Part shown: in pieces, positions 1,689 through 23,184 of the stretch
Layout of the letters: every line of letters begins with the position of its first letter
How positions within the stretch are numbered: the first letter of the stretch is position 1
From: a virus
Reading direction: 5' to 3' (one strand)
Length of the DNA stretch: 26,369 nucleotides
IMG/VR virus record: IMGVR_UViG_3300034104_003795
Span: 1 to 26,369 of that record
Made by a program: the position numbers and the translations under genes
The notes under the pieces: generated by a model
Databases searched by the model: none
What the model was told of the DNA's origin: nothing
What the model saw: only the letters and a program-made list of their open reading frames with translations

Positions 1689-1904
1689 TTATGAAGAAAT
1701 TCCACAAAGTGTTAAAAACTCCTTTGCATTATGTATAACATCTTCTGATTTGAACTTTCTTAACATAGCTTCTGCTATTTCTTTTCTATTGGCCATATCA
1801 TCTACCATACGAAGTATTTCAGCAACACCCACAACCATATCTCTATCATTCTCATGTCCCTGTCCAACTTCTACTTCGTTGATTAAACTACTTAACTTTA
1901 TCAT
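1689..1904 (-). CDS. Small helical phage protein with capsid-targeting-like leader
   Basis: 71 residues. I chose ATG 1904 because it gives MIKLSSLINE, a leader matching the next two genes upstream, and because the upstream stop is one base away. A longer frame from 1991 would overlap the neighbour by 86 bp. After the leader the protein is charged and predicted helical (DMVVGVAEILRMVDDMANRK, then KEIAEAMLRKF and KEFLTLCG). The leader ends in INE followed by V, which fits the (I/L)-x-E cleavage pattern of T4-type prohead proteases. The function of the body is unknown. It lies just before the receptor, separated from it by the hairpin. Confidence 0.7.
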   Translation of the reverse strand: MIKLSSLINEVEVGQGHENDRDMVVGVAEILRMVDDMANRKEIAEAMLRKFKSEDVIHNAKEFLTLCGISS

Positions 1905-1905
1905 A

Positions 1906-2625
1906 TTATTTACAGGTTTTCCAGCCACCACCTTTTGATTTGTAGTTTTTTGCAGCCCATCCATTTGCATAAGCCGATGGATATACATCAAACTTCTTTT
2001 TAGCTGCAGCTTTAGATGCTGACCATTTAGCCGGGTCAGTTGGACAATTCTTTTCTAAGAATAATTCCATTTTTTGTTCTACGGTTAATTTCATATTTTC
2101 GTTTTTCTTTTTACCAGCACAATGTGCTTTTTGTGAGAAACCTTTTGGGTTACTACAATTTATTGAGTTCTTATATTTTTGAGACCATTTCTCATCAATC
2201 CCCTCACTAGCTCCTGTCTTTACAAACGTTGGTTTTTGACCTTTTGATTTTTCTCCACCTTTTTTAGCATCCCCTGCTTTAGATTGTGCAGCTCTTTTTC
2301 TTTTTACAAACGAAGCTCTACCATCTTTACCTAATTTATCAGCTTTTGCATTTGATAAACAGGCTGCATAGGCAGAACCTTTTTTAGAATCTCCACATTT
2401 TCCAACCTTCTCACCTTTGGTATTGTATCTATCCCAACCACCAGTTGGTCCACTTCCAAACCATTTACGAAGGTCTTCGCTAATTGGTGTATTATCATGC
2501 CCGCATTTGTGACATAGGTAAGGTTGAGTACCACCATCGGATATATCCCAATGCCAATTACATGAATCACAAGTAACTACATTAGCGTTCACACCTTCAT
2601 TTAATATATTAGTTAGTTTTATCAT
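1906..2625 (-). CDS. Zinc-ribbon, DUF5872-like basic protein with capsid-targeting-like leader
   Basis: 239 residues. Residues 1-10 are the leader MIKLTNILNE. A zinc ribbon follows with Cys19, Cys22, Cys38 and Cys41. Residues 51-145 resemble DUF5872 (DLRKWFGSG, GGWDRYNTKGEKVGKCG, ASFVKRKRAAQ), a module I know from phages and large DNA viruses. The C-terminal third is very Lys/Ala-rich and ends with a motif common in phage proteins (KKKFDVYPSAYANGWAAKNY, then KGGGWK). The strong basic charge and zinc ribbon suggest nucleic-acid binding. With a leader that resembles T4 internal-protein targeting peptides, a head-packaged, injected protein is plausible but unproven. It directly abuts the upstream gene (TAA then ATG). 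Confidence 0.8.
   Translation of the reverse strand: MIKLTNILNEGVNANVVTCDSCNWHWDISDGGTQPYLCHKCGHDNTPISEDLRKWFGSGPTGGWDRYNTKGEKVGKCGDSKKGSAYAACLSNAKADKLGKDGRASFVKRKRAAQSKAGDAKKGGEKSKGQKPTFVKTGASEGIDEKWSQKYKNSINCSNPKGFSQKAHCAGKKKNENMKLTVEQKMELFLEKNCPTDPAKWSASKAAAKKKFDVYPSAYANGWAAKNYKSKGGGWKTCK
2595..2624. repeat. 30-nt direct repeat, copy 1 (leader-coding)
   Basis: Exact 30-nt match to 2868-2897. It encodes most of the leader MIKLTNILNE at the start of the zinc-ribbon gene (ATG 2625). Synonymous positions are identical too, so this is a recent duplication or recombination between leaders rather than selection on protein alone. Confidence 0.9.
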
Positions 2626-2898
2626 TTATTTATAAAAATTGTTATAAATATGTTGCTTTATTTGAATTGGCATTCTTAATTTTCTATTTTCTAAATAATT
2701 ATCTAATTTTACTCCTTTAACAAAATACTTAAATGTAAAATTTGCATTTGGTTTTGATTTTAGTGTTATATCTACCAACGCATTTCCATTTTTATCCCAC
2801 CCTTTACTTGGATATGATAGTATAGTATCTTTGCTAAATTCTTCAAACGATACTTTTTTATCTTTTACTTCATTTAATATATTAGTTAGTTTTATCAC
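2626..2898 (-). CDS. Unknown small protein with capsid-targeting-like leader, GTG start
   Basis: 90 residues, beginning with GTG at 2898. Residues 1-10 are the same leader (MIKLTNILNE) as in the next gene. The body has alternating charged and hydrophobic stretches (VDITLKSKPNANFTFKYFVK), suggesting a small alpha/beta fold; I do not recognise it. It overlaps the 3' end of the 40-residue basic gene by 17 bp and its stop touches the next start. A weak GTG start inside another gene suggests translational coupling. Confidence 0.65.
   Translation of the reverse strand: MIKLTNILNEVKDKKVSFEEFSKDTILSYPSKGWDKNGNALVDITLKSKPNANFTFKYFVKGVKLDNYLENRKLRMPIQIKQHIYNNFYK
2868..2897. repeat. 30-nt direct repeat, copy 2 (leader-coding)
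   Basis: Exact 30-nt match to 2595-2624. It encodes the same leader at the start of the 90-residue gene. The match stops just short of the first base of the start codon, where this copy reads GTG and the other ATG. Confidence 0.9.
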
Positions 2899-3792: not shown

Positions 3793-4269
3793 TTACTTTA
3801 CATTTGGGTCTTCTAGATTTTTGATATATTCATCAATCAATCTACTTACTGCTTCAGGCTTTTCATCAGCCTTAAACTTAACCTTTATTTTAGCCATCCC
3901 TGCTTCACTTGGATTATATCCTGAATCAACTTCAATACCTTTGATATTGTGTTCGTATCCTTTTTTCTTAAATAAACCTAATAAAGATTTTTTAAGACTG
4001 GATACTTCCTTTTCTTCATCACCAAATATAAGTCTACAAGTAAACTCAATATCTAGCTCATCTAATCCAATAGATGAATGGTCCGCTAAAATATAAAGAG
4101 GTACAACCAAATCCTTACCACCTATATTAAAGGAAGTAGTTTTGGGTGTACCATCTTCATTGAAATAGTTTCGGAGAGCATTAATATGCTGTCTTTCACT
4201 TATACCTTGAGAAACCATAGCGGCCTCTAATAGACCGCCAACTAGTTCCTCTACATTTAATCTTGCCAT
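3793..4269 (-). CDS. DUF2589-associated protein (second of a pair)
   Basis: 158 residues, no signal peptide or membrane segment. It opens with VEELVGGLLEAAMVSQGISE, followed by a strand-rich segment (NIGGKDLVVPLYILADHSSIG; DELDIEFTCRLIF), a Lys-rich loop (LLGLFKKKGYE) and the C-terminal strand MAKIKVKFKADEKPE. The strand pattern and pairing with the gene upstream resemble the two-gene DUF2589 arrangement seen in Bacteroidota and other bacteria; the biochemical role of DUF2589 is unknown. The gap to the upstream gene is 24 bp and a terminator follows, so the two are one transcript. Confidence 0.6.
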   Translation of the reverse strand: MARLNVEELVGGLLEAAMVSQGISERQHINALRNYFNEDGTPKTTSFNIGGKDLVVPLYILADHSSIGLDELDIEFTCRLIFGDEEKEVSSLKKSLLGLFKKKGYEHNIKGIEVDSGYNPSEAGMAKIKVKFKADEKPEAVSRLIDEYIKNLEDPNVK

Positions 4270-6994: not shown

Positions 6995-7348
6995 TTAATT
7001 TATTATCAGTAACGTTTTACCTATTTGGACACTATTCTCATCTTCCAAAGATAAATATAAATATCTAACAGGTAACGATTTTGTGTATAACTTTAAGGAA
7101 TTTTCCCCAATTTTACCAATTATTCTTTCTCTAGTAACTACTTGCTGACCTACTGAATCAAAAAGAGTAAGTGTATATATTCCTTCCGATTTTAAAGTGA
7201 ACTTAAATTGTTCTCCGTTTCCAATAGATGCTTCTTTAACAGAAAATATATCTTCTACTTTTGGTGGTGGGGTTGGTTCTACTTCTACTTTTCTACAAGA
7301 GATTATAAAAACAACACAACACAATAAGATTAATATTAACTTTTTCAT
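6995..7348 (-). CDS. Small lipoprotein, paralogue of the next gene downstream
   Basis: 117 residues with signal and lipobox (MKKLILILLCCVVFIISCRK). A Pro-rich linker (VEPTPPPKVED) leads to a beta domain (YTLTLFDSVGQQVVTRERI, ENSLKLYTKSLPVRYLYLSL) that matches the neighbour: both have the (E/D)N-L-K-(L/V)-Y-T core and an L/ALP turn. The start codon overlaps the stop of the large lectin-domain gene by one base (TAATG), so translation is probably coupled and the lipoproteins may anchor or fold those secreted proteins (inference). Confidence 0.75.
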   Translation of the reverse strand: MKKLILILLCCVVFIISCRKVEVEPTPPPKVEDIFSVKEASIGNGEQFKFTLKSEGIYTLTLFDSVGQQVVTRERIIGKIGENSLKLYTKSLPVRYLYLSLEDENSVQIGKTLLIIN

Positions 7349-9636
7349 TATTTCATTTTTACTTTTAATGTGTTTCCGCTTTTATTTACTGCATCGGTGA
7401 ATGAAATTGAAATTAAACCTAATACATTGTTCAATTTTGTTTGTGGTTTGAAACTGATTTTATATTCGGTAGTATTATCTAAAACCCCACCATCAGTAAT
7501 TAAAGAACCAAAATTTACATAATCACCTTTATCAGTTCCATAATTAGTTGGTGACCCCTTTGTCTTATAAGATACACTACTAAATTTCAATAAACTATTA
7601 TCGTAATTTAATTTGAATTGAGTTCCAACTAATTCTTGTTGTAATGGGTCAATCTTAATATATGCAGTAACACTATCTCCAATAATTTCAGTTATTATAG
7701 ATGCGTTTATTTGATTTGATATTGGTAAACTCATTGGTATAACACTCATACTTCTAATAGAAGAACCTGATATCGCAGGTGGAGTTTGTTGTGCTGAATG
7801 TGATAAATTTACATCACCTTTCCAAGTTACACTAACATTATATGTGTTATTAAGTGTTCCACTATTCAAATTAAATGGATATAAACTTCTAGTGTAATTG
7901 AATTGTGTATTCCAATTTGATTTTGTAATCGCATCATATTCCGATTTTCCATACAACTTCATCAAATAAGTTAATGTTGAATATTCATTAATAGGTTGTA
8001 CACCTATTAAATGTTGTAATAATTTATAGGTATCGGTTTCATTAAATACACCATTACCATCTACATCTGCGTTCATAAATTGAATACCAGATGTAAACTC
8101 TAATCCACTTTCGTTTCCAAATATTCCACTATTTGATAATTCTTTAAATGCCAAATACACATCGGATACACTTACTACACTACTATATAAATTATTTAGT
8201 TCGGTTTGATTAGTATATGATAAATCAATTCCATGTTGCTTAAACATCACATTAGGTGTAAATGTAAACTCTGCACTCAACCCCCAAAAAAATCCAGCTC
8301 TTCTTATATTAGATGAAAATGATGAACCTGCAAAATTAAGTTCCGTTGGTGTATAAATCCAATATGCGGCCCAAGTTCCATCATCCCATTGATAAGTTAC
8401 AGCCCCATTCCACAAATCAAATAATTGTAAACTTGTAACACTACTTGCTGAAGTACCTTGTGGGAATTCTCTTTTATCAATTAGGATTTGATATCTTTGG
8501 GATTGTGATTCATAATCATATACTACGCACCATTCTACTTGTCCGCCTGATGTTGTTGCTCTAACACCATTACCATTTACCTTTACAGTATCTAAATCAT
8601 TTGTTAAATCAACTTTACCTAATCCACTTATAGCTCTTGATGTGTTAGTTGTTGTTCCCCACACATTGTTTACAAAAGTATTTGCTTTTGCTGTAAATTT
8701 AGTTTCATCTACATTACTTCCAAAATCAAAATTAAATCTTGCTGTTAATACTTCCCCATTTGAATGTGTTACTGAATTTGTATAGAATTCTGTAAATGTT
8801 GCATCATCAGGGTTAGTCCAAGTTCCGTATTCAATTACATAAGGGCAACTAAATCCATTCGGTAAATCATTCCATTGAGAACCGTTCCATTTTGTTACCG
8901 CATAATCTTCGTTACCACTATTGTTTGGTTCACCAGGTGCCCAGTTATTATATTGACCTTGTATGTTTCCGGCTGTTTGTCCGTTTGATGTTTTTATTAG
9001 AGTTCCAGCTTCAGGACCGGCATCAATTCTCCATTGTCCCTCAACAGCTTCATCCGTTAATGCAAACCAAATGTTTGTTTGTGGAACATTGTTAAACACA
9101 AACGCATCTTCATCTGCGGAAGTGATTGTTACCAAATATCCTTGTTGCCCTTTAAATGTGGTATTTAACGCTGCCGCCCTTGCACCCGTATAACTTGTTC
9201 CTGTTGATATTGGTCTATAAAAATGACCATTTGTTCCATTGTAAAAGAACCCCGTTGGATTAACCGTAGCTGCTACCGATAATGCAATATTACCTCTTAC
9301 TGAACCTGTGTTTACTTTTAAAGATGCTAATGCCGTATTGATATTAGCCATTGTTCCCGTTACCACTAAACGAGTCTTATTACCTGCTAATGTAAATCCA
9401 CTAGCTGCAGTTAGACCTGTTGTTGTGGTTAAGTTAAATGTAGTACCTGTTGGTGGATTAACTAAACTGATTGAAGCTAATAGAGTTGCGGTTGAACCAA
9501 ATCCACTCAATACAAACCCACTCGCATCTTGTCCGTTTGTGGATGGTAAAAAAGATTTAGAGTCCGGTGCAGATACACTCTGACCGAACCCTAAATTTGT
9601 AATTAATAAAAATAAAAATATTAATAAGTTTCTCAT
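7348..9636 (-). CDS. Secreted modular protein: C-type lectin, dockerin-like and cohesin-like domains
   Basis: 762 residues. Signal peptide 1-19 (ends GFGQ). Residues 20-125 are a Thr/Ala-rich beta repeat. Residues 130-271 are a C-type lectin-like domain with the calcium and sugar-binding motif WAPGEPNN (EPN, 236-238, the mannose-type triplet) and WND at 255-257; only Cys264 of the usual disulfide cysteines is present. A beta-rich middle follows. Residues 523-545 are one dockerin-type calcium loop (DVDGNGVFNETD). Residues 645-762 resemble a cohesin (GTQFKLNYDNSLLKFSSVSY). Residues from about 480 to the end are paralogous to the next gene upstream. Likely secreted or surface-displayed glycan-binding protein. 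Both ends overlap neighbours by one base. Confidence 0.8.
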   Translation of the reverse strand: MRNLLIFLFLLITNLGFGQSVSAPDSKSFLPSTNGQDASGFVLSGFGSTATLLASISLVNPPTGTTFNLTTTTGLTAASGFTLAGNKTRLVVTGTMANINTALASLKVNTGSVRGNIALSVAATVNPTGFFYNGTNGHFYRPISTGTSYTGARAAALNTTFKGQQGYLVTITSADEDAFVFNNVPQTNIWFALTDEAVEGQWRIDAGPEAGTLIKTSNGQTAGNIQGQYNNWAPGEPNNSGNEDYAVTKWNGSQWNDLPNGFSCPYVIEYGTWTNPDDATFTEFYTNSVTHSNGEVLTARFNFDFGSNVDETKFTAKANTFVNNVWGTTTNTSRAISGLGKVDLTNDLDTVKVNGNGVRATTSGGQVEWCVVYDYESQSQRYQILIDKREFPQGTSASSVTSLQLFDLWNGAVTYQWDDGTWAAYWIYTPTELNFAGSSFSSNIRRAGFFWGLSAEFTFTPNVMFKQHGIDLSYTNQTELNNLYSSVVSVSDVYLAFKELSNSGIFGNESGLEFTSGIQFMNADVDGNGVFNETDTYKLLQHLIGVQPINEYSTLTYLMKLYGKSEYDAITKSNWNTQFNYTRSLYPFNLNSGTLNNTYNVSVTWKGDVNLSHSAQQTPPAISGSSIRSMSVIPMSLPISNQINASIITEIIGDSVTAYIKIDPLQQELVGTQFKLNYDNSLLKFSSVSYKTKGSPTNYGTDKGDYVNFGSLITDGGVLDNTTEYKISFKPQTKLNNVLGLISISFTDAVNKSGNTLKVKMK

Positions 9637-13583: not shown

Positions 13584-13814
13584 TTAAGCTTCGCCCATTT
13601 TACCACCAAACATAGAACTATTAAAATAATCTATTTCCATTTCGTTTCTGGCTTTTTTTATTTCGTTTTGGGCCCATTCCATTTTAGCCTGAAATCTATC
13701 ATCAAGTTTTTCTTCCTTAATTTTTTTAGTTTCTATTAACTCATCTACTAATGCTTCTAATAACAATTGTAAGGTTAATATTCTTTCGTTTTGTGCTGCT
13801 AATAATTCTTTCAT
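13584..13814 (-). CDS. Small coiled-coil protein
   Basis: 76 residues, almost wholly helical with heptads (LLAAQNERILTLQLLLEALV, ELIETKKIKEEK) and a charged second helix (WAQNEIKKARNEMEIDYF). No signal or motif. ATGA overlap with the upstream gene (13811-13814) indicates coupled translation. It is the last gene of the UvsE-led run before the class 1 promoter at 13551. Function unknown. Confidence 0.65.
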   Translation of the reverse strand: MKELLAAQNERILTLQLLLEALVDELIETKKIKEEKLDDRFQAKMEWAQNEIKKARNEMEIDYFNSSMFGGKMGEA

Positions 13815-14056
13815 GCTAATTCAATTGAGCCACTATAAGCGGTTTGAAAGATTTGTGATAGTTCTGAATCCAAATCTTTTTTATATTCTATACCAAATGC
13901 TTTTCTTACTGATAACGATGTATATCCCATAGCTCCCGCCATTCTCATACACATTCTTTTGTATTCCCAAACATCCATATCGTTTGGTACTTCAAATTCT
14001 ATTTTAGAAGCTTCTCTATTTTCTTCTTCATCTATGATAAATATTAATTTTGCCAT
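13811..14056 (-). CDS. Unknown small phage protein
   Basis: 81 residues. It starts with two strands (KLIFIIDEE; ASKIEFEVPNDMDVWEYK), followed by a helix with CMRMAGAMGYTSLSVRKAFG and an acidic C-terminal helix (DLDSELSQIFQTAY). No family recognised. The compact alpha/beta makeup suggests a small soluble binding protein. Its stop overlaps the next start (ATGA). Confidence 0.6.
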   Translation of the reverse strand: MAKLIFIIDEEENREASKIEFEVPNDMDVWEYKRMCMRMAGAMGYTSLSVRKAFGIEYKKDLDSELSQIFQTAYSGSIELA

Positions 14057-14066
14057 TGTTTAGAAT

Positions 14067-14648
14067 TTAAATTACACTCCATCCTTTTTGTAGGTAAGAA
14101 TCAACCTTTTTGCTTTTTACAAATTCCATTTCACCCGCAGGTCCTTGTAACATAACTCTTTCATTTCTACCAGGTGCTTTATCTTTTGTAATAGTTTCTG
14201 AATATTGACGAGTTGGATGTGTAATATCAATACCATCAATTGCATCCAAAGCCCGTTGTACTAACACAGCTTCCAATAAGCCGGCATCACTAAAAAATTC
14301 ATCAGCACTTTTCCAATCAAATGTTTCACTCGTTGCTTTAAATTCAACTTTTCCCAAATTATCGGTTTCCAATACTATCCAAGGGTAACGAATTGTTTTT
14401 CTAACTTTATTTTCTTTATATGTATCTTTTTCAAAATATACCAATGGTCTATCTGATAATGATATTACTTTTGGGTTTACCAAAGTTAATTCATCTTCTT
14501 TATTTCCCAATCGTATAGTAATGATTCGTTTATCAATTAATACATCCGCGGCACTAAATACAATGCCTTCTAAAGAAGATATCAATGATTTATACGAAGA
14601 AACATCTTCGGCAGATATTGGAGCCTCACTAATTTTTTTTATTTTCAT
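14067..14648 (-). CDS. Peptide-deformylase-like protein lacking catalytic motifs, with leader
   Basis: 193 residues from ATG 14648, one base past the upstream stop; a start at 14696 would overlap by 47 bp. Residues 1-9 (MKIKKISEA) form an I-x-E/A leader. The body follows the deformylase strand order: VLIDKRIITIRLG (after a GLAAPQVG-like position), LVNPKVISLSDRPLVYFE, YPWIVLETDNLGKVEF and LLEAVLVQRALDAIDGIDI. The three metal and catalytic motifs are gone: no GxGxAAxQ, no EGCLS, and HExxH is replaced by QRALD at 131-135. So it is probably an inactive structural relative. The end (MLQGPAGEMEFVKSKKVD) is separate. Identification is by pattern and could be wrong. Confidence 0.55.
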   Translation of the reverse strand: MKIKKISEAPISAEDVSSYKSLISSLEGIVFSAADVLIDKRIITIRLGNKEDELTLVNPKVISLSDRPLVYFEKDTYKENKVRKTIRYPWIVLETDNLGKVEFKATSETFDWKSADEFFSDAGLLEAVLVQRALDAIDGIDITHPTRQYSETITKDKAPGRNERVMLQGPAGEMEFVKSKKVDSYLQKGWSVI

Positions 14649-15484: not shown

Positions 15485-16408
15485 TTAATTACTTAAAGGT
15501 GCTTTAATTGTTGGGTGTGATTGATATCCTTCTAATATGAAATCATCAGGTGTATTACAACATATACCGTCTATCTTTGCATCAGTTTTTAATTGTGGTA
15601 AATCAAATGATTCTCTACTGATTTGTTCTTTTGCCTGTTGGATATGGTTTAAATACAAATGAGTATCACCTAAATTACCAATCAATTCATCAGGTACCAT
15701 ATTCACTTCATTCGCTATAATATGTAACAATAATCCATATGAAGCAATATTAAATGGTAATCCTAAAAACGTATCCACACTTCTTTGATTCCACATTAAC
15801 GAAATTGCTCTTTTAGGTATATTTAATTCATCCAATTTAGATTCATCAAAATCTTCTGCGTAGTAAATACTTTTATTTATAGAATCGGTAAAATATTTTT
15901 TTCTTTCTTCAAAGCTTAATTCTCTTGTATAAACTTGGAATCCATAATGACAAGGCGGTAATACCATTTGGTCTAACTCACCTACATTCCAAGCACTCAC
16001 CATTAATCTTCTACTATCTGGATTTTCTTTTAAGTTTGTAACCAAATCATGTATCTGGTCAATCTTACCATTACTACCATTCCACTGTCTCCATTGTTTA
16101 CCATATATAGGTCCTAATTCACCGTCAGTTCTTCCACTCTTTTCATAATCACCATCCCATATATGATTATTATGTTTATGTAAAAAAGAAATATTAGTTT
16201 GACCTGTTAGAAACCAAAGTAGTTCCGATACAACTTGCTTCCACGCTAATTTTTTTGTTGTAAGAGCCGGAAATCCATCTTTCATATTATGTCTGATAGT
16301 GTATCCGAAAATAGATTTAGTACCAGTTCCGGTTCTATCTTTTTTCTCAACACCATAGTTGATAATAGTTTCTAATAATTCTTTATATTGTTTATCTAAA
16401 TTATTCAT
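15485..16408 (-). CDS. thyA: Thymidylate synthase
   Basis: 307 residues. It converts dUMP to dTMP with methylene-tetrahydrofolate, raising dTTP for phage DNA synthesis. Signatures: DRTGTGTKSIFG near 24, catalytic Cys153 in LPPCHYGFQVY, the phosphate-binding RR at 133-134, RSVDTFLGLPFNIASYG, and GDTHLYLNH near the end. A charged insertion at about 162-200 (FEERKKYFTDSINK...) separates the catalytic Cys from RSVD; insertions at this place occur in some family members. Belongs to the UvsE-led run. Confidence 0.95.
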   Translation of the reverse strand: MNNLDKQYKELLETIINYGVEKKDRTGTGTKSIFGYTIRHNMKDGFPALTTKKLAWKQVVSELLWFLTGQTNISFLHKHNNHIWDGDYEKSGRTDGELGPIYGKQWRQWNGSNGKIDQIHDLVTNLKENPDSRRLMVSAWNVGELDQMVLPPCHYGFQVYTRELSFEERKKYFTDSINKSIYYAEDFDESKLDELNIPKRAISLMWNQRSVDTFLGLPFNIASYGLLLHIIANEVNMVPDELIGNLGDTHLYLNHIQQAKEQISRESFDLPQLKTDAKIDGICCNTPDDFILEGYQSHPTIKAPLSN

Positions 16409-16409
16409 A

Positions 16410-16655
16410 TTAAATTATTAAATCATCCAGTTTTATATTGTGTTCATCCAATATTTCATATATCTTTTCATATACCATATCTAATGCCTCATACTTATCT
16501 ATTTCTTTACCTTCCATACTCCACTCTAACCTCTTTTTAGTATTATGGGTTATATCCCACAATGCTAATGCCATATCCAATGATTTAACAGCTCTTTTAT
16601 GTGCCATAGAATCATCGGCATCATTTAAATCATATTCTAGTTTTGCCTTTGCCAT
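16410..16655 (-). CDS. Small conserved phage protein
   Basis: 81 residues, helical. The start KLEYDLNDADDSMAHKRAVK followed by SLDMALALWDI, and the end ILDEHNIKLDDLI, match a small protein widespread in phages of diverse hosts and often near nucleotide-metabolism genes; no function is known. It is translated one base before thyA and overlaps the upstream membrane gene by 26 bp. Confidence 0.75.
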   Translation of the reverse strand: MAKAKLEYDLNDADDSMAHKRAVKSLDMALALWDITHNTKKRLEWSMEGKEIDKYEALDMVYEKIYEILDEHNIKLDDLII

Positions 16656-16950
16656 TTTTTTCAGTTTTAGTTTTGAAAAAGAAAAATAATTTTGATTCTA
16701 AATTATCCATTTGAGTCATAGCTATCCATTTACCCAATACACTACCACCAATATAAAATGGTAGTACCCACATATCACCTTTTAACAAACTATCTAATGA
16801 GAAATAAACCGAAGCAAGTGATACCAAATTAATCCATACTGAATTAAGCATCAATCTTGTCAATTGATTTTCATAAGTAAATTTAATTTCCAATACCTTA
16901 AAGATATTAAACATTATTTGAAAAGTTAATATGGCTATATAATTCATCAT
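16630..16950 (-). CDS. Small multi-helix membrane protein
   Basis: 106 residues. About three hydrophobic segments: residues 3-20, 36-53 (SVWINLVSLASVYFSLDSLL) and 60-77 (VLPFYIGGSVLGKWIAM), with a Lys-rich tail. Similar proteins occur in phages of Bacteroidota; function unknown. It starts in an ATGA overlap with the UvsE stop. The 3' end overlaps the next gene by 26 bp. Confidence 0.7.
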   Translation of the reverse strand: MMNYIAILTFQIMFNIFKVLEIKFTYENQLTRLMLNSVWINLVSLASVYFSLDSLLKGDMWVLPFYIGGSVLGKWIAMTQMDNLESKLFFFFKTKTEKNGKGKTRI

Positions 16951-17822
16951 TTAATAAAAGGTAGTATTGCTAATTCTTTTGCTTTTGCCTCAACCATAAT
17001 ATCCAAATTCAATCCATATGTGTTTGGTAATTGTTTAATATAATCAGCATGTGCTTGTGGTTTGTTTCCTTCTCTTGCTTCGGAATAATGTACTTCTTGA
17101 GTAATACCATTAGGCCAAGTTGCTGATGCTAATTTAAGAGCTTCTTCTTCGGTTAATCCACCTGTACAAAATTGGTGATGGTGGTAATCAAATACAATTG
17201 GAATATTTGTATGTTTGTGAATATACATAAGGTCTAAAACTGAATACATAGACGCCTTATCATCATTCTCTACTGTCAATCGTTTGCGAACCGATGGAGA
17301 GAGTCTTTTGAAGTTTTGGATGAATCTATCCATGGCGGATTTTTTATCACCATAAACACCATTACAATGAATATTAATATTATTATAATGAGTTTTAGAT
17401 AACCCCATCATATCAAATATTTTAGCATGTAATTCTAAATCTGCAATTGCGTTTTTAACTACTTCTTCTTTTGGAGAAGTTAATACAACAAATGGACCAG
17501 GATGTGAATTAATACGCATATCCCAAAACTTAGCGAAATCACCAGCTTTCTTTAACTCACTTTTAATCTCTTTGTAATCTTTTAATTGAGTTAAATCCAA
17601 ATGGTCACCCCAAGGCACAATGGTAGATGATAAACGGAATAATTTAATTCCATTCAATCTATTCCACTCTAAAATTTTAATAATATCTTTTGCATTGAGT
17701 AATGCAAGCTCAGAAACATAATCTAAACCTTTTGTTTGGAAAGTTCTTTTAACCATAGCTCGATTAGTAGATACTTTCTTACCCATACTCATATTGATAC
17801 AAGCGTATCCTAAATTCATCAT
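16947..17822 (-). CDS. uvsE: UV damage endonuclease (UvsE/UVDE family)
   Basis: 291 residues. A TIM-barrel endonuclease that nicks 5' of UV photoproducts, starting excision repair. Motifs: GYACINMSM at the start, KLFRLSSTIVPWGDH, MRINSHPGPFVVL, INIHCNGVYGDK, RLTVENDD, IPIVFDYHHHQF and QEVHYSEAR, which hold the three-metal ligands (His, Glu, Asp). Two adjacent ATGs (17822, 17819); the second gives MNLGYA, the usual family start. First gene after a class 1 promoter and so likely early, repairing sunlit phage DNA. Confidence 0.93.
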   Translation of the reverse strand: MMNLGYACINMSMGKKVSTNRAMVKRTFQTKGLDYVSELALLNAKDIIKILEWNRLNGIKLFRLSSTIVPWGDHLDLTQLKDYKEIKSELKKAGDFAKFWDMRINSHPGPFVVLTSPKEEVVKNAIADLELHAKIFDMMGLSKTHYNNINIHCNGVYGDKKSAMDRFIQNFKRLSPSVRKRLTVENDDKASMYSVLDLMYIHKHTNIPIVFDYHHHQFCTGGLTEEEALKLASATWPNGITQEVHYSEAREGNKPQAHADYIKQLPNTYGLNLDIMVEAKAKELAILPFIK

Positions 17823-17844
17823 TTTAGTATTATTTGTTGTTATA

Positions 17845-17876
17845 CAAATATACGAAAACTTTATGAATTTACCAAA
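17845..17876 (-). promoter_or_regulatory. Class 1 (Bacteroidota-type) promoter
   Basis: TTTG (17876-17873), a 20-nt spacer, TATATTTG (17852-17845), then 22 nt to ATG 17822. It lies in the 56-bp gap after the membrane protein gene and drives the uvsE-thyA run. Confidence 0.85.
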
Positions 17877-17878
17877 TA

Positions 17879-19294
17879 TTAGTATGATTTACTTGAGAAA
17901 TCGGTTGGATATTGAGAAGGTTTGATATGTTTTATCCAATAATTAACCGCATTTTGGTCATTTATCCAATGTTTACGGTCAGCCCAATTGAAATCAGGTC
18001 TAGCATAGTATGGTAACATATTTTGTATTGCTGCCGCTCTACCAGGATGCGATGCTATAACTCTATTTATTAAACCATCACCATCGGTATCTATACCATC
18101 AGTACTACCATCACCATCCAAATCAATAGCTCTTTCTGAATAATCAGTTTTAAGATTTAATAGTATTTCATCGGTGATTTCTGGTTCTAATGCTTTCTTT
18201 TCTTCATCCGTTAATGTAGAGTATTCCTCTTCCAAATTTGTTGGAGTGGCATCAGTTTCGTTTTTTTTTATGTCCTCATTATATTGAGTAGCTACATTAA
18301 CTAATTGTTCGTTTGGTTCTGATGGATTTTCTATTTCATTAAAGAATACTTCCGAATCTTTTTCTGATAGAGTTATTGGTTCATCGTATAATCCTAACTC
18401 TTGGTCATTTTTCATCATTTCGGCTAATAAATCCTCTCGTCTTTTCTTATCACCATATACCTCATAATTCTTATAATTCTCATCCATCAATTCATCCAAC
18501 CCATCTCCTAATGTAGCATCCCAATCTGATAAATCATCTTCTTCTTTTCGTTTCATCAATAATCCATTAAATGCTATAATCAATGCAACTGCTAACGGGT
18601 CAAATACAATTACTATAATGAATATAAAGAATTTTACAACTGTATTAAGTGGTACTCCAAATGCTTCTGCTACGAAACGAAATCCACCAACTTCTCTTTC
18701 TAATTCAATGTTGTTATTTTTGATTGCGTTAATTGAATCTAATGCAACATTGTTTTGTCTTGTCAGTTCATCAATACGTTTAGATACCGATGCAATTTCT
18801 TTATCGGCAGTTTTAATCATTTGCGATACTCTTGAAGTTGATTTATCTTTATCTATTTGTTTAGATAAATTAGCTTCTTGTGAGTTACGAATATTTTGTT
18901 GGTTAGTTAATTGAGTTGTATAACGGGCTATCTCTCCATCATTTTTAGTGATTTGAGTTTGATACACTGCAATATCTCTTTCAATCTTTTGTAATCCCAA
19001 ATTTTGTTGTTGGAATGCGTTTGATAGATACCCAAAGATACCTGCTGATGTGATAAGCATCAAAGTACCAACTGATATAGTTAAATACCATTTGTTAAAT
19101 CCTTTAAGGGTATCCCATTCTTGTTTTAGGTATGTTGCGGCAACTAATTTAGCAAGTTCCAATGAACCTGCCATTACCATTACCGAAACCGATGCTCCCG
19201 CAAATAGTACACCTAATCCAGTTACAGAGAAATAAGCCGCACATCCGGCAACAAGGATTGCTGAAAGCCCAACTAATACTTTTAACCAATTCAT
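17879..19294 (-). CDS. Membrane protein with coiled coil and calcium-binding loops
   Basis: 471 residues. N-terminal hydrophobic helices (about 4-55, including VTGLGVLFAGASVSVMVMAG, and 70-90), a long coiled coil (95-195, KIERDIAVYQTQITKNDGEI onward), a further membrane helix pair (about 213-245, FFIFIIVIVFDPLAVALIIA) and a long acidic cytoplasmic-like region. Near residues 393-415 come two EF-hand-like loops (DLDGDGSTDGIDTDGDGL). The tail is aromatic (FNWADRKHWINDQNAVNYW). Similar proteins occur in many phages of varied hosts without assigned role. The coil between membrane helices suggests a scaffold or sensor of the envelope. Six bases from the small helical gene upstream. Confidence 0.75.
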   Translation of the reverse strand: MNWLKVLVGLSAILVAGCAAYFSVTGLGVLFAGASVSVMVMAGSLELAKLVAATYLKQEWDTLKGFNKWYLTISVGTLMLITSAGIFGYLSNAFQQQNLGLQKIERDIAVYQTQITKNDGEIARYTTQLTNQQNIRNSQEANLSKQIDKDKSTSRVSQMIKTADKEIASVSKRIDELTRQNNVALDSINAIKNNNIELEREVGGFRFVAEAFGVPLNTVVKFFIFIIVIVFDPLAVALIIAFNGLLMKRKEEDDLSDWDATLGDGLDELMDENYKNYEVYGDKKRREDLLAEMMKNDQELGLYDEPITLSEKDSEVFFNEIENPSEPNEQLVNVATQYNEDIKKNETDATPTNLEEEYSTLTDEEKKALEPEITDEILLNLKTDYSERAIDLDGDGSTDGIDTDGDGLINRVIASHPGRAAAIQNMLPYYARPDFNWADRKHWINDQNAVNYWIKHIKPSQYPTDFSSKSY

Positions 19295-19299
19295 TTTTA

Positions 19300-19479
19300 T
19301 TATGCTAAATCTACAATGTTTGTTGTCAATTCAACCAATCTTTCAATTTCCTTTGCAGCTCTTTTTGCTTCATCTTGATTAACCGGTCTTTCACCATTTA
19401 ACATTTCGGAAATAACTTTAGCTCTTTTAGCAATTGCTTCTAAATTCTCTTGAGCTCTCATTTTGTATTCAGGTTTCAT
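19300..19479 (-). CDS. Small helical protein
   Basis: 59 residues from ATG 19479 to TAA 19300. Entirely helical and charged: MKPEYKMRAQENLEAIAKRA, a short loop (NGERPVN), then QDEAKRAAKEIERLVEL. It fills the space between the Hsp20 terminator and the membrane protein, with a class 2 motif 19 nt upstream, which supports expression. Helical hairpin; function unknown. Confidence 0.7.
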   Translation of the reverse strand: MKPEYKMRAQENLEAIAKRAKVISEMLNGERPVNQDEAKRAAKEIERLVELTTNIVDLA

Positions 19480-19498
19480 AAAACTATTATTTGTTTTT

Positions 19499-19510
19499 AT
19501 ATAAATATAA
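19499..19510 (-). promoter_or_regulatory. Class 2 (putative late) promoter motif
   Basis: TTATATTTATAT on the minus strand, 19 nt before ATG 19479 and just after the terminator T-tract. It would drive the small helical gene and the membrane protein gene. Confidence 0.5.
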
Positions 19511-19512
19511 GT

Positions 19513-19545
19513 AAAAAGAAAAAGGGTGGATTTTGATACCCACCC
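19513..19545 (-). terminator. Rho-independent terminator of hsp20
   Basis: Minus strand GGGTGG, a 10-nt loop, CCACCC, then TTTTTCTTTTT. Located 20 bp after the Hsp20 stop. Confidence 0.85.
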
Positions 19546-19565
19546 TCTTCTGTATTTTGATAGGA

Positions 19566-20045
19566 TTACCCTATTGAAATTGTTCTTTTCTTTGGTTTTT
19601 CAGGCTCCCTCTTTGGTATTTGTAACTCCAATACACCATCTTCAAATGATGCTTTTACCTTATCTAAATCAAAGATTTTAGAATCAGCTGTAAAACTTCT
19701 CAAGAAAGATGAACGTTTAACTTCTCTACGAAGATATACTCCACCTTCTTTTTCTTGTGATTTACTTGCTTTTTCTCCTTTTAAAGTAATTACATCACCA
19801 TCTACATCAATGGTAATTTGTTCTTTGGTTAGACCAGGAACTTCCGCTACAATCTCAATACGGTCATCAAAGTTAATGATGTCACATTTTGGATAAGCGT
19901 TTTGTTGGAATGGATTGATACCGATTTCCTTTGTTAATTCAGGAAATGCATCTGAAAATACTTTATCAAATAAAGTATCTAATGGTGAGAAGAACTCGTC
20001 CCTAAAATTTGGGGTAGGGAATCCCCTTTGAATTTGGTTTTTCAT
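19566..20045 (-). CDS. Small heat-shock protein Hsp20
   Basis: 159 residues. ATP-independent chaperone that holds unfolding proteins. The alpha-crystallin domain spans about 48-145: CDIINFDDRIEIVAEVPGL, DVDGDVITLKGEKA, and the hallmark FEDGVLELQIPK. The C-terminal TISIG carries the I-x-I motif that locks oligomers. Length is typical. It stands alone between a 100-bp structured leader and its own terminator. Phage Hsp20s are common in T4-like cyanophages and may aid capsid assembly or stress survival. Confidence 0.95.
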   Translation of the reverse strand: MKNQIQRGFPTPNFRDEFFSPLDTLFDKVFSDAFPELTKEIGINPFQQNAYPKCDIINFDDRIEIVAEVPGLTKEQITIDVDGDVITLKGEKASKSQEKEGGVYLRREVKRSSFLRSFTADSKIFDLDKVKASFEDGVLELQIPKREPEKPKKRTISIG

Positions 20046-20072
20046 TTTTTTACCTTTTTTAAGCGTTAATTT

Positions 20073-20119
20073 GTATCTCCTTTTGGATGATACGCCGATA
20101 TGCTGGCCAGCTCTATCGG
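20073..20119 (-). promoter_or_regulatory. Tandem hairpins in the hsp20 leader (possible RNA thermometer)
   Basis: On the transcript, hairpin 1 (20119-20095) pairs CCGATA with TATCGG and has the self-complementary core GCTGGCCAGC. Hairpin 2 (20093-20073) pairs GTATC-A-TCC with GGA-GATAC around an AAAA loop and buries an AGGAG sequence, the only Shine-Dalgarno-like element I noticed at a leader in this window, though it is about 30 nt before the ATG. Structured leaders of small heat-shock genes often act as RNA thermometers (known); whether this one does is inference. Confidence 0.5.
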
Positions 20120-20120
20120 T

Positions 20121-20132
20121 TTATAAATATAG
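20121..20132 (-). promoter_or_regulatory. Class 2 (putative late) promoter motif
   Basis: CTATATTTATAA on the minus strand, 75 nt before the Hsp20 ATG and immediately before its leader hairpins. The longer leader sets this copy apart from the others. Confidence 0.45.
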
Positions 20133-20145
20133 CCGTAGCTAAAAA

Positions 20146-20793
20146 TTATGCATTTTGTCTTTCAATAATTGTACTCATATGGTCAGCCCAATGTAGTATA
20201 TATTGAATTTTAGAACGAAGGTATTTTGAAGTATCATATACTTTAAAGTATTTTTCATTATCTTCATCATATAGACCATCGGTTAGTTTGATACCAAAGT
20301 ATTCATTCTCATTATACTGAACTCCATAATGATTTAATGTAAAGAATGTTCTATCGGTAATTGTCATAAAAGGAATATTTTCATTTCTTTTATACAATTC
20401 ACCTCTATTATCAATGTGCCATTTTGAATCATTTGGTACATAGTGTAATTCGTCTTTAATACCTAACTTGCCCAAATCATGATGAAGTGCTGCAAATAAT
20501 AACTGCTCATCGGTGAAATCGACTGTACCACCAGCTTCTTCGTAAAGTTTTTTCATACGAAGTGCGTTTTTACAAACATTCATAATGTGGTCAATATATC
20601 CACCCTCATATGCATTGTGATAATTGAGATTACCACTCGCAGGAGATATAATCAAATTAGGACCTAATTCTTCCATTGAATACATCTTTAATAGTTTCTC
20701 CAATCTTTCAGGATTAGAACTACATGCTTTACGAACCAAGTTTAGAAACTTTTCGTAATTTTCTTCCAATTGTTTTTCTGTGTAATTTTTCAT
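20146..20793 (-). CDS. HD-domain phosphohydrolase
   Basis: 215 residues. Metal-dependent HD superfamily: the HD core is HHDLGK at 104-109, with upstream ligands in NYHNAYEGGYIDHI (59-70) and a late Asp in ILHWADHMS. Members cleave phosphate esters of nucleotides, including (p)ppGpp, cyclic dinucleotides and dNTPs; the substrate here is not readable. No partner domain. It is driven by a class 1 promoter that lies only 4 nt upstream, so its mRNA may begin at or next to the ATG. Confidence 0.85.
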   Translation of the reverse strand: MKNYTEKQLEENYEKFLNLVRKACSSNPERLEKLLKMYSMEELGPNLIISPASGNLNYHNAYEGGYIDHIMNVCKNALRMKKLYEEAGGTVDFTDEQLLFAALHHDLGKLGIKDELHYVPNDSKWHIDNRGELYKRNENIPFMTITDRTFFTLNHYGVQYNENEYFGIKLTDGLYDEDNEKYFKVYDTSKYLRSKIQYILHWADHMSTIIERQNA

Positions 20794-20797
20794 AATA

Positions 20798-20829
20798 CAA
20801 ATATACGATTTTATTCTTGAATTTCCAAA
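20798..20829 (-). promoter_or_regulatory. Class 1 (Bacteroidota-type) promoter
   Basis: TTTG (20829-20826), a 20-nt spacer, TATATTTG (20805-20798). The -33 part lies inside the 3' end of the preceding gene. Only 4 nt separate the -7 element from ATG 20793. Confidence 0.8.
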
Positions 20830-21176
20830 TTTTCTTCAATGTCCTCTCCACAAAGAGCTGAATATAGAATATCCAATTCTTCCTCACTACTACAAAACCC
20901 TAACCCGTCCATATCCATTATTTCTATAAAAAATTGACCAGGCTTTATTCCAATTTCTTTCATTAAGAGTTGTTCATCAGTTGCACTTGATATTAACATT
21001 GGTGCAAATTCATCTTCTCTATATTTTGGAATCGGTATCGTCCAATAGTAATGCCCATCCTCATCATTTCCATTCTCATTCATACCATCACCGGCTATAA
21101 TTTTTTTCCAACCCTGTCTAATAAACGTTTCTTCGGTTATAGGGGTCATTGGTAGTTTAACTTCTTTCTTTCTCAT
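20811..21176 (-). CDS. Unknown small soluble protein
   Basis: 121 residues. Start at 21176 chosen for its ATGA overlap with the upstream stop; an alternative ATG at 21149 gives MTPITEETFIRQGWKKI. The body has YYWTIPIPKYREDEFAPMLI and an acidic tail (EDIEENLEIQE). The opening resembles phage proteins that begin with an ITEETFIRQGW-type turn, but no function is known. Co-transcribed with the lipoprotein and nucleotidase. Confidence 0.6.
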   Translation of the reverse strand: MRKKEVKLPMTPITEETFIRQGWKKIIAGDGMNENGNDEDGHYYWTIPIPKYREDEFAPMLISSATDEQLLMKEIGIKPGQFFIEIMDMDGLGFCSSEEELDILYSALCGEDIEENLEIQE

Positions 21177-21727
21177 TCAATTATTATTTTAGTATAAACT
21201 ATTTTTTTACTTAATGTGTTTTCCGCTTTCAATACCATTGTATCACCAATCATTTCTTTAATAGGACCAATCATATTAGAAAATTCACCATCTTTGGATG
21301 TATATGATGCAATATTTGTTGTTGGTACTAATTCAGATTTAAGAGCTATAAATGGTGGTAATTTTACAATTGTAAATTGACCTGTAAAATAATTTATATA
21401 AGTTTCGCTTATTGTTGCAATAGTATCACCTCTTTGTATTGACCAAAATAAATTACTTTCCCATTCTATTTTATGTGGATATTGTGCAGGTTTGTTATTT
21501 ACTAAAAATCTTCCAACTACTCTATGAGTTTGTTGTGTAGAATACGGATTGTTTATAACCAAATGATAATACCCATTACTATCTTTTGGTAGAGATTTAG
21601 TACCTGCTCTATTAAGTACCGAATCAATTCTTAATTCGTAATTATAAATTGGTTCAGGATATATTTCATCTTTTTGACAAGATATTAGTAAAAATAAACA
21701 AACAATAGGGGTTAATAGTTTTTTCAT
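21173..21727 (-). CDS. Lipoprotein of unknown function
   Basis: 184 residues from ATG 21727, one base after the nucleotidase stop; a longer frame from 21856 would overlap that gene by 128 bp and hide the signal peptide. The signal MKKLLTPIVCLFLLISCQKD has a clean lipobox (LISC). The mature part is beta-rich (YYHLVINNPYSTQQTHRVVG, HKIEWESNLFWSIQRGDTIA), perhaps an immunoglobulin-like fold. Phage lipoproteins can block phage receptors against superinfection; that would fit here but is inference. Confidence 0.7.
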   Translation of the reverse strand: MKKLLTPIVCLFLLISCQKDEIYPEPIYNYELRIDSVLNRAGTKSLPKDSNGYYHLVINNPYSTQQTHRVVGRFLVNNKPAQYPHKIEWESNLFWSIQRGDTIATISETYINYFTGQFTIVKLPPFIALKSELVPTTNIASYTSKDGEFSNMIGPIKEMIGDTMVLKAENTLSKKIVYTKIIIE

Positions 21728-21728
21728 T

Positions 21729-22211
21729 TTATAACAATTTTTTAAGGATACTTTCCCAAGTAGGATATTCGTTAAATAATTTTGTTTCGTAAGACCATCC
21801 GAATTGTAATAGTTCACCTTTGAATTCACCAGCACCATTTGCGGTTCTATCGTCAATTAAGTAATCACCAATCAATAAACCTTTAAGGTGAGTGATTGCC
21901 ATTTTCTTTTTGAATAGATTTCCAAAGTGTTCTTCAATCCAAAATCTTTTATCCATAGCTGCCATAGGATTTCCCCAAGGGGCCGCAGTAGCTATATACA
22001 ATTCGTACTTACCACTTTCCGCTAATTTGTTGATAGCTTCAATAGCTCCTTCAACTGGTTTTGGGTTTCTAAAAATACCAGGTATGTGGTCATATCTGCC
22101 TTTATAGTTTTCTTTTAAAAATACATTCTTTGATATAGTTTCTTCAACGTGCCCATTGAAATCAACAAGCACCCCATCCATATCAATCCATACAATCTTC
22201 TTTTGGGACAT
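21729..22211 (-). CDS. 5'(3')-deoxyribonucleotidase-like HAD phosphatase
   Basis: 160 residues. HAD superfamily: motif 1 WIDMDGVLVDF (nucleophile Asp10, acid Asp12), a threonine-type motif 2 in ELYIATAAPW, a Lys region (KKKMAITHLKG) and motif 4 LIDDRTANGAGEF. Family NT5C removes phosphate from deoxynucleoside monophosphates; length fits the phage version. It may tune nucleotide pools beside ThyA. First gene after a class 1 promoter. Confidence 0.85.
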   Translation of the reverse strand: MSQKKIVWIDMDGVLVDFNGHVEETISKNVFLKENYKGRYDHIPGIFRNPKPVEGAIEAINKLAESGKYELYIATAAPWGNPMAAMDKRFWIEEHFGNLFKKKMAITHLKGLLIGDYLIDDRTANGAGEFKGELLQFGWSYETKLFNEYPTWESILKKLL

Positions 22212-22234
22212 AATCTCTCAATTTGTTTACATAG

Positions 22235-22266
22235 TAAAGATACGAAAAATACCTGATATTACCAAA
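22235..22266 (-). promoter_or_regulatory. Class 1 (Bacteroidota-type) promoter
   Basis: TTTG (22266-22263), a 20-nt spacer, TATCTTTA (22242-22235), 23 nt before ATG 22211. It shares TTGGTAATATCAGG with the promoter at 25619-25650. The PhoH terminator ends one base upstream. Confidence 0.75.
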
Positions 22267-22314
22267 TAAAAAAGGGGAAATAACGTGTTGAAAATCAACT
22301 AGTTACGTCCCCTT
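22267..22314 (-). terminator. Rho-independent terminator of phoH
   Basis: A long interrupted stem on the minus strand: AAGGGG with CCCCTT, GTAAC with GTTAT, and GTTGA with TCAAC, followed by TTTTTT. Stop of phoH is 19 bp upstream. A partial copy of its inner part (AACTAATTGATTTTCAAT) lies over the phoH stop codon. Confidence 0.85.
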
Positions 22315-22332
22315 TTCATAAGTCATTGAAAA

Positions 22333-23184
22333 TCAATTAGTTATAACTTCCTCATTTTCAACGATTTCCTGTTCATCTTCATCTGGAAATGGTTTAAAAC
22401 TGAAATCTAAATCATAAGGGTTATTTTCCCCTAAAATTATTTGTTCTTCTAATTCATATCTTTCAAGTACTCTTTTAACAATACCTGAACGAATACAATC
22501 TTCTCTTGTAAATTCTATTTGATAAACTCCTTTTAATTTACCCAATCTTTTCCACACATCAAAGAATCCACTTTTTGTATAAGCGGGTGAACCATTAGTT
22601 CTGTATTTATCACATTGAGAAAGGTCACCTTCAATAATTAATTTTGTATCATCTGAAATACGAGTAATTAAAGTTTTTAATTGATGTGGTGATGCGTTTT
22701 GAGCTTCATCTAAAATTACATAACTTTTTTCAAAGTTTATACCTCTTAAAAAGTTAAGTACTCTAAACTCAATTTTACCTTGTTCTATTAATTTTTTTGT
22801 TTCAACTGGTCCTATAATTTTATGCATTATAAAAAGAGATGATTCGTTGTGAACTGCAATCTTCTCCATTAAATCTCCTGGCAAATGCCCTAACTTATCT
22901 TCGTTACCAACATCAACGGTTGGATTTATAATTATTAATTTTTCAATATGTGACAAACGATGTAATAATAACTCTAAACCTTTTTGAATTGATATGTATG
23001 TTTTTCCTGCTCCTGCTAAAGCATGACCCATTATAATATTATGATTGGGGTGCTCAATTGCTTTGTAAAATCTTTTTTGATTGAATGTTTTAAATTTTAT
23101 TTTCTTTATAACTTTTGGATAAGATAACTTATACTCTTTAACTACTTCCTTTGGAACTTCTTCCTCTCTAACCTTTTTAGCCAT
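22333..23184 (-). CDS. phoH: PhoH-family ATPase
   Basis: 283 residues. P-loop NTPase: Walker A GHALAGAGKT at 53-62, Walker B VILDEAQN at 156-163, and the PhoH signatures LGHLPGDLMEKI and LKTLITRISDDTKLIIEGDL. In bacteria it is a phosphate-starvation protein; phage copies are widespread and of uncertain role, perhaps RNA or nucleotide related. The start region is Lys/Glu-rich and the C-terminus acidic. It lies 6 bp after the 23191-23544 gene and so likely shares its class 2 promoter. Confidence 0.93.
   Translation of the reverse strand: MAKKVREEEVPKEVVKEYKLSYPKVIKKIKFKTFNQKRFYKAIEHPNHNIIMGHALAGAGKTYISIQKGLELLLHRLSHIEKLIIINPTVDVGNEDKLGHLPGDLMEKIAVHNESSLFIMHKIIGPVETKKLIEQGKIEFRVLNFLRGINFEKSYVILDEAQNASPHQLKTLITRISDDTKLIIEGDLSQCDKYRTNGSPAYTKSGFFDVWKRLGKLKGVYQIEFTREDCIRSGIVKRVLERYELEEQIILGENNPYDLDFSFKPFPDEDEQEIVENEEVITN

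Follow-up and report, generated by a model that had tools for sequence, protein, structure and literature searches.

The window analysed here covers positions 1–26,369 of a virus record 273,997 bases long (IMGVR_UViG_3300034104_003795). Three adjacent genes at positions 1689–2898, all on the minus strand and designated P1, P2 and P3, begin with a common N-terminal leader of ten residues and continue into bodies that are mutually unrelated, as the initial annotation of this DNA had described. P1 (1689–1904, 71 amino acids) joins the leader MIKLSSLINE (1875–1904) to a 61-residue acidic, probably helical body (VEVGQGHENDRDMVVGVAEIL...). P2 (1906–2625, 239 amino acids) joins MIKLTNILNE (2596–2625) to a body of 229 residues, and P3 (2626–2898, 90 amino acids), which starts at a GTG codon, joins MIKLTNILNE (2869–2898) to an 80-residue basic body. 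Each leader is an exact match to the pattern MIKL-x-x-(I/L)-(L/I)-x-E, and the junctions read MIKLSSLINE|VEVG in P1, MIKLTNILNE|GVNA in P2 and MIKLTNILNE|VKDK in P3.

The largest of the three had been called a basic zinc-ribbon protein, and the P2 body indeed has a pI of 9.6 and a CxxC...CxxC arrangement of cysteines. It is made of four modules, which follow the leader in the order zinc ribbon, DLRKWFG, WSQKYKNSINC and KNCPTDPAKW, the last of them DUF5872-like. The zinc ribbon (residues 11–50; 2476–2595, minus strand) is a mobile module and ends at a second candidate cleavage site, ISE|DLRKWFG. Family searches returned nothing usable for P1 and P3, no PDB relative was found for P2, and none of the bodies in the window matched any capsid-protein family. 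At the DNA level, P2 and P3 share 29 of their 30 leader nucleotides; the P1 leader (ATGATAAAGTTAAGTAGTTTAATCAACGAA) has many other codons, so its likeness to the other two lies in the protein. A DUF2589 protein (E = 6.5e-13) is encoded a few genes upstream, at 3793–4269.

Leader layout and its T4 counterparts

The first ten residues of T4 IPIII are sufficient for entry into the head, with residues 4 and 7 serving targeting, residues 8 and 10 serving processing, and the cut falling after L/I-X-E (PMC9026906). P1, P2 and P3 fit this layout, having ten residues, hydrophobic side chains at positions 4, 7 and 8 and a glutamate at position 10. We expressed the layout as the rule M-x-x-Φ-x-x-Φ-Φ-x-E. 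Across 49 kb of T4 (65 ORFs), the rule picks ipII, ipIII and gp24 only, all of which are gp21 substrates. At internal positions it is matched at a frequency of 0.0021 per position, so that among the 41 ORFs of the window it was expected 0.085 times and seen four times, including P1–P3 (P for three or more about 1e-4), a comparison to be read with the fact that the rule was drawn up after the leaders had been seen, its positions being taken from the T4 experiments. The fourth match, MAKLIFIIDE at 13811–14056, is probably due to chance and was set aside.

The capsid-targeting sequences of T4 IPI–III (MKTYQEFIAE|A in ipII and ipIII) resemble the present leaders in their ten residues, hydrophobic positions 4, 7 and 8 and E10, as well as in the attachment of identical or similar leaders to unrelated bodies and the presence of an S77 protease in the phage (PMC9026906). 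The consensus found here is MIKL(T/S/K)xILxE, compared with MKTYQEFIAE in T4, and it occurs on many more kinds of body, enzymes included; in one subtype, unlike in IPI–III, the residue after the glutamate is often not small. The T4 sequence closest to the window leader is the propeptide of gp24, MAKINELLRE|S, which shares its length, K3, aliphatic residues at 4 and 7, L8 and E10. These are the first ten residues of gp24, which the protein loses through removal by gp21 (PMC9958956); gp24 is a shell protein, not cargo.

A further parallel comes from cyanophage S-SM1, whose cytidylyltransferase T4-GC190 starts MKKFSAFLNE|AERSF, one of two rule matches in about 145 kb of that genome. T4-GC190 is thus an enzyme with the same leader layout, and the window phage also has a leader-bearing cytidylyltransferase-like protein (described below), the similarity between the two being weak (24% over 99 amino acids, E = 0.007). 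T4-GC190 is reported in purified virions of this T4-like phage (PMC3037559), which is the nearest available approach to an experimental check; no description of its cleavage was found there. The S-SM1 protein T4-GC119, a relative of P2 modules, was considered as virion evidence but lends no support and weighs on the other side: it is annotated as hypothetical, not as virion structural, and carries no such leader. In large phages of the phiKZ/SPN3US type, many packed and ejected proteins are shortened by a gp21-like protease that cuts after x-x-E (PMC5694885, PMC9026906), but several of their propeptides exceed 100 residues and do not form a short common leader.

The initial annotation had counted a fourth gene of the window among the leader carriers, and this part of the proposal did not hold. 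The deformylase-like gene at 14067–14648 (ATG at 14648; Pfam Pep_deformylase, 2.8e-8) starts with MKIKKISEA, where the segment ending in glutamate has eight residues and lacks the Φ4/Φ7/Φ8/E10 layout. Among 31 relatives the glutamate is often replaced (MKIKKINHG, MKVQKINQT, MKVQKIEQS, MKIKKIDIA), so MKIKKISEA is simply the start of that domain.

Head genes and further leaders in the record

A capsid-targeting role for the leader had been expected to go together with a gp21-like protease and with further leader ORFs elsewhere in the genome, and both were found. A Peptidase_S77 domain (PF03420) is encoded at 236005–236598 of the record, within its head gene cluster (E = 8.6e-29; 97.7 bits against a curated cut-off of 27). 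The protein is 29% identical to T4 gp21 and conserves the GELxHP and SSRGxGS blocks around the His and Ser residues, which are invariant in an alignment of five phages. The record also encodes a Gp23 capsid protein in which the T4 maturation site is kept as LLDE|A, aligned with FLTE|A of T4. The form [LIV]xE|A is likewise kept at the capsid site of immuto, Mel-JY01 and the huge phage LR756508; in RM378, the maturation site was not visible in the same alignment. The nearest cultured relatives of the capsid protein are those of a Flavobacterium phage and a Microcystis phage, at about 52%, which leaves the Bacteroidota host named in the initial annotation as a candidate.

A degenerate search of the whole record revealed a fourth MIKL leader, MIKLTNILKE, on a 145-residue protein (240561–240998) encoded between the terminase and portal genes. 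With a looser search, we found MKGLAKFLVE at the start of a 971-residue protein encoded on the minus strand upstream of the terminase gene (243395–246310; L458:396-3311). This protein contains a cytidylyltransferase-like domain and DUF5661, shows (I/L)xE triplets where its domains seem to meet (KLKE|S, NLKE|S, ILDE|M, SLSE|S and LILE|G) and bears a KTDG motif in its C-terminal region, which we take to be reminiscent of nucleotidyl-transferring ligases. The stretches read around matches amounted to about 75 kb of the record including the window, and the tally of leader genes may accordingly miss others.

Spread of the leader and modular bodies

We searched IMG/VR with two patterns, MIKL(T/S)(D/N/E/K)IL(N/D/E/K)E and MI(K/R)LKx(I/L)LxE. 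The first was present in at least 119 contigs, with nearly all matches at true ORF starts, compared to 2 matches for a control having the same codons in shuffled order. Pooling both patterns gave at least 239 distinct leader proteins, whose bodies fell into at least 116 clusters when grouped by single linkage at BLASTP E<1e-3. Recognisable bodies included Fe/Mn superoxide dismutase, a zeta-toxin/AAA_33-type ATPase, nucleotidyltransferase, NUDIX, RimK-like ATP-grasp and HD proteins, RNase_T, M23 and Phage_lysozyme2. A phage Fe/Mn superoxide dismutase with the leader MIKLTDILKE (L125:5505-6203; Pfam E = 1e-30) may be carried in the head.

These numbers bear on the idea that the common starts are recent copies of a gene start, made by DNA duplication or gene conversion and having no function of their own. 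Such copying would account for the near-identity of the P2 and P3 leader DNA, but we regard it as highly improbable, given that P1 encodes similar residues with different codons, that the pattern precedes so many body families and that the codon-order control yielded so few matches.

Leader contigs were also enriched for T4-type head genes. S77 or Gp23 was detected in 21 of the 30 listed leader contigs of at least 25 kb, compared to 2 of 17 contigs with an arbitrary pattern (P about 1e-4). Neither gene was seen in the remaining 9 of the 30, which counts against the reading, though most of the contigs are fragments, so the absence of head genes means little. A different destination, such as the tail, the baseplate or the host envelope, would leave the likeness to the T4 head leader partly convergent. 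What speaks for it, and counts against a capsid-targeting leader, is that a few of the bodies resemble tail or cell-wall enzymes (Phage_lysozyme2, Peptidase_M23) and not typical head cargo. We consider this very unlikely, since head leaders defined by experiment have the same layout, the enrichment concerns head genes and, in the record itself, a leader gene is placed between those for terminase and portal.

When position 10 was left free, it was E in 76 of 98 ORF-start matches, and several leaders without E10 had ILxE four residues on, for example MIKLTDILKNILKE|A. The initial annotation had described (I/L)-x-E followed by a small or hydrophobic residue; the motif itself is present in all three window genes (INE, LNE, LNE), while in this leader subtype a residue other than a small one often follows (in the window, G, V and V). 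I and V dominate the MIKL(T/S) set at this position, I being the commonest, which differs from the A, G or S of T4 sites and counts against the T4 reading. The MIKLK subtype mainly has A, S, N or G there.

Relatives of P2 consist of shuffled modules with (I/L)xE at the joints. Three leaders, MIELKSILNE, MIKLKSILSE and MIRLKNLLSE, are found immediately before the DLRKWFG body, as is the T4-like MKSFTNYFSE in another phage; the zinc ribbon is absent in some relatives, where the leader joins DLRKWFG directly. Glutamate immediately preceded the DLRKWFG module in 49 of 49 cases, with a hydrophobic residue at P3 in 45 of 49, and the KNxPTDP module was preceded by E and by a hydrophobic P3 residue in 25 of 25 each, against a background for [ILVMF]xE of 2.6% per residue. 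The conservation of this glutamate could in part belong to the modules themselves.

The P1 body behaves similarly. As a separate gene and in fusion with P2 alike, it has INE, IKE or MKE before it, and in relatives it follows PIKE|, VMKE| or VIKE| in place of the leader. A P2-type zinc ribbon stands before it in L147, ending IKE|VEVAPGHEND, and in L142–L144 P1 is fused to P2 through the joint VMKE|VEV or VIKE|VEV; a hydrophobic-x-E thus precedes the P1 body in every case seen, whatever lies upstream. The P3 homologue in L147 has the same body behind the leader MIKLSSLLKE.

These observations also bear on the possibility that the leader is a helix that docks onto the scaffold or capsid to bring in cargo and is then either retained on the mature protein or cut no earlier than (I/L)xE sites further along. 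In its favour, the usual I or V after E10 in MIKL(T/S) would extend the hydrophobic face to residue 11, and several leaders whose position 10 is K, N or Q carry ILxE at residue 14. We judge it unlikely, because about four fifths of leaders retain E10 when the search does not require it, because A, S, N or G mainly come next in the MIKLK subtype and because modules start directly after the glutamate.

Other leader types were seen in two further phages. In 41 kb of the 484-kb uncultured phage LR756508.1 (L227, 151904-193517), at least 12 of 57 ORFs open with a leader of a second, longer family, MK(L/I)xxxKLRxIIKEEIxxLLxE. In Flavobacterium phage immuto, a similar long leader precedes the body ADRCxRIAxxKYDKPSAYxSGAIVRCR, which elsewhere carries MIKLTDILNE. 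The MIKL pattern was not found in immuto; its genome has the S77 protease, the capsid site and other leader-like starts, and no virion proteomics of this phage was found in the literature.

A putative head-loading route

We think it likely, with good confidence, that the MIKL-x-x-(I/L)-(L/I)-x-E leader is a capsid-targeting leader of the T4 kind, and would extend this, by analogy, to cutting by the S77 protease, packing into the head and injection. The leader most likely represents a form of the T4 capsid-targeting sequence that is distinct and occurs widely. This agrees with the interpretation first offered for the locus as regards the layout at positions 4, 7, 8 and 10, the protease and the further leader genes, and departs from it in leaving out the deformylase.

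Docking, cleavage, packaging and injection are steps expected from T4 biology. During prohead assembly, the hydrophobic face of a short helix (residues 4, 7 and 8) would attach the protein to the scaffold core. Cutting after (I/L)-x-E by the S77 prohead protease would then free the body inside the head, where it would be packed along with the DNA and so reach the next cell. A cut precisely at E10 is a less secure expectation than targeting, given that I or V often follows in MIKL(T/S) leaders. Since the bodies are in turn strings of modules linked at (I/L)xE, a single precursor may yield several pieces. The leader would act as a modular tag that unrelated bodies may acquire and exchange for other leader types; in this phage, the proteins so far predicted to carry it are P1, P2, P3, the 145-residue terminase-side protein and the 971-residue multidomain protein.

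We lean slightly towards a broader reading as well, according to which uncultured phages with T4-type heads would generally use the leader as an exchangeable tag for loading the head, making virion cargo of ordinary enzymes (superoxide dismutase, NUDIX, nucleotidase, kinase-like, nucleotidyltransferase, ATP-grasp and HD proteins). Strings of small basic modules would then be polyproteins cut at (I/L)xE, and the injected set could be read from sequence.

Along with its DNA, T4 delivers a small number of proteins, at least one of which (IPI) defeats a host defence. A tag on more than 100 unrelated proteins of environmental phages could be used to predict which proteins are packed in the head and probably injected. 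Should large environmental phages use the same tagging, candidate injected proteins could be listed directly for thousands of uncultured genomes, including enzymes not suspected as virion parts, and the leaders and modules would offer natural tags for bringing proteins into phage heads in the laboratory. A search of open-access papers found no description of this leader family.

Other genes of the window are of separate interest. A secreted-looking protein of 762 residues (7348–9636) has C-type lectin, cohesin-like and weak dockerin-like matches, which is unusual for a phage, and the interval 15485–23184 contains genes for thymidylate synthase, a UvdE-type UV endonuclease, Hsp20, 5'-nucleotidase and PhoH.
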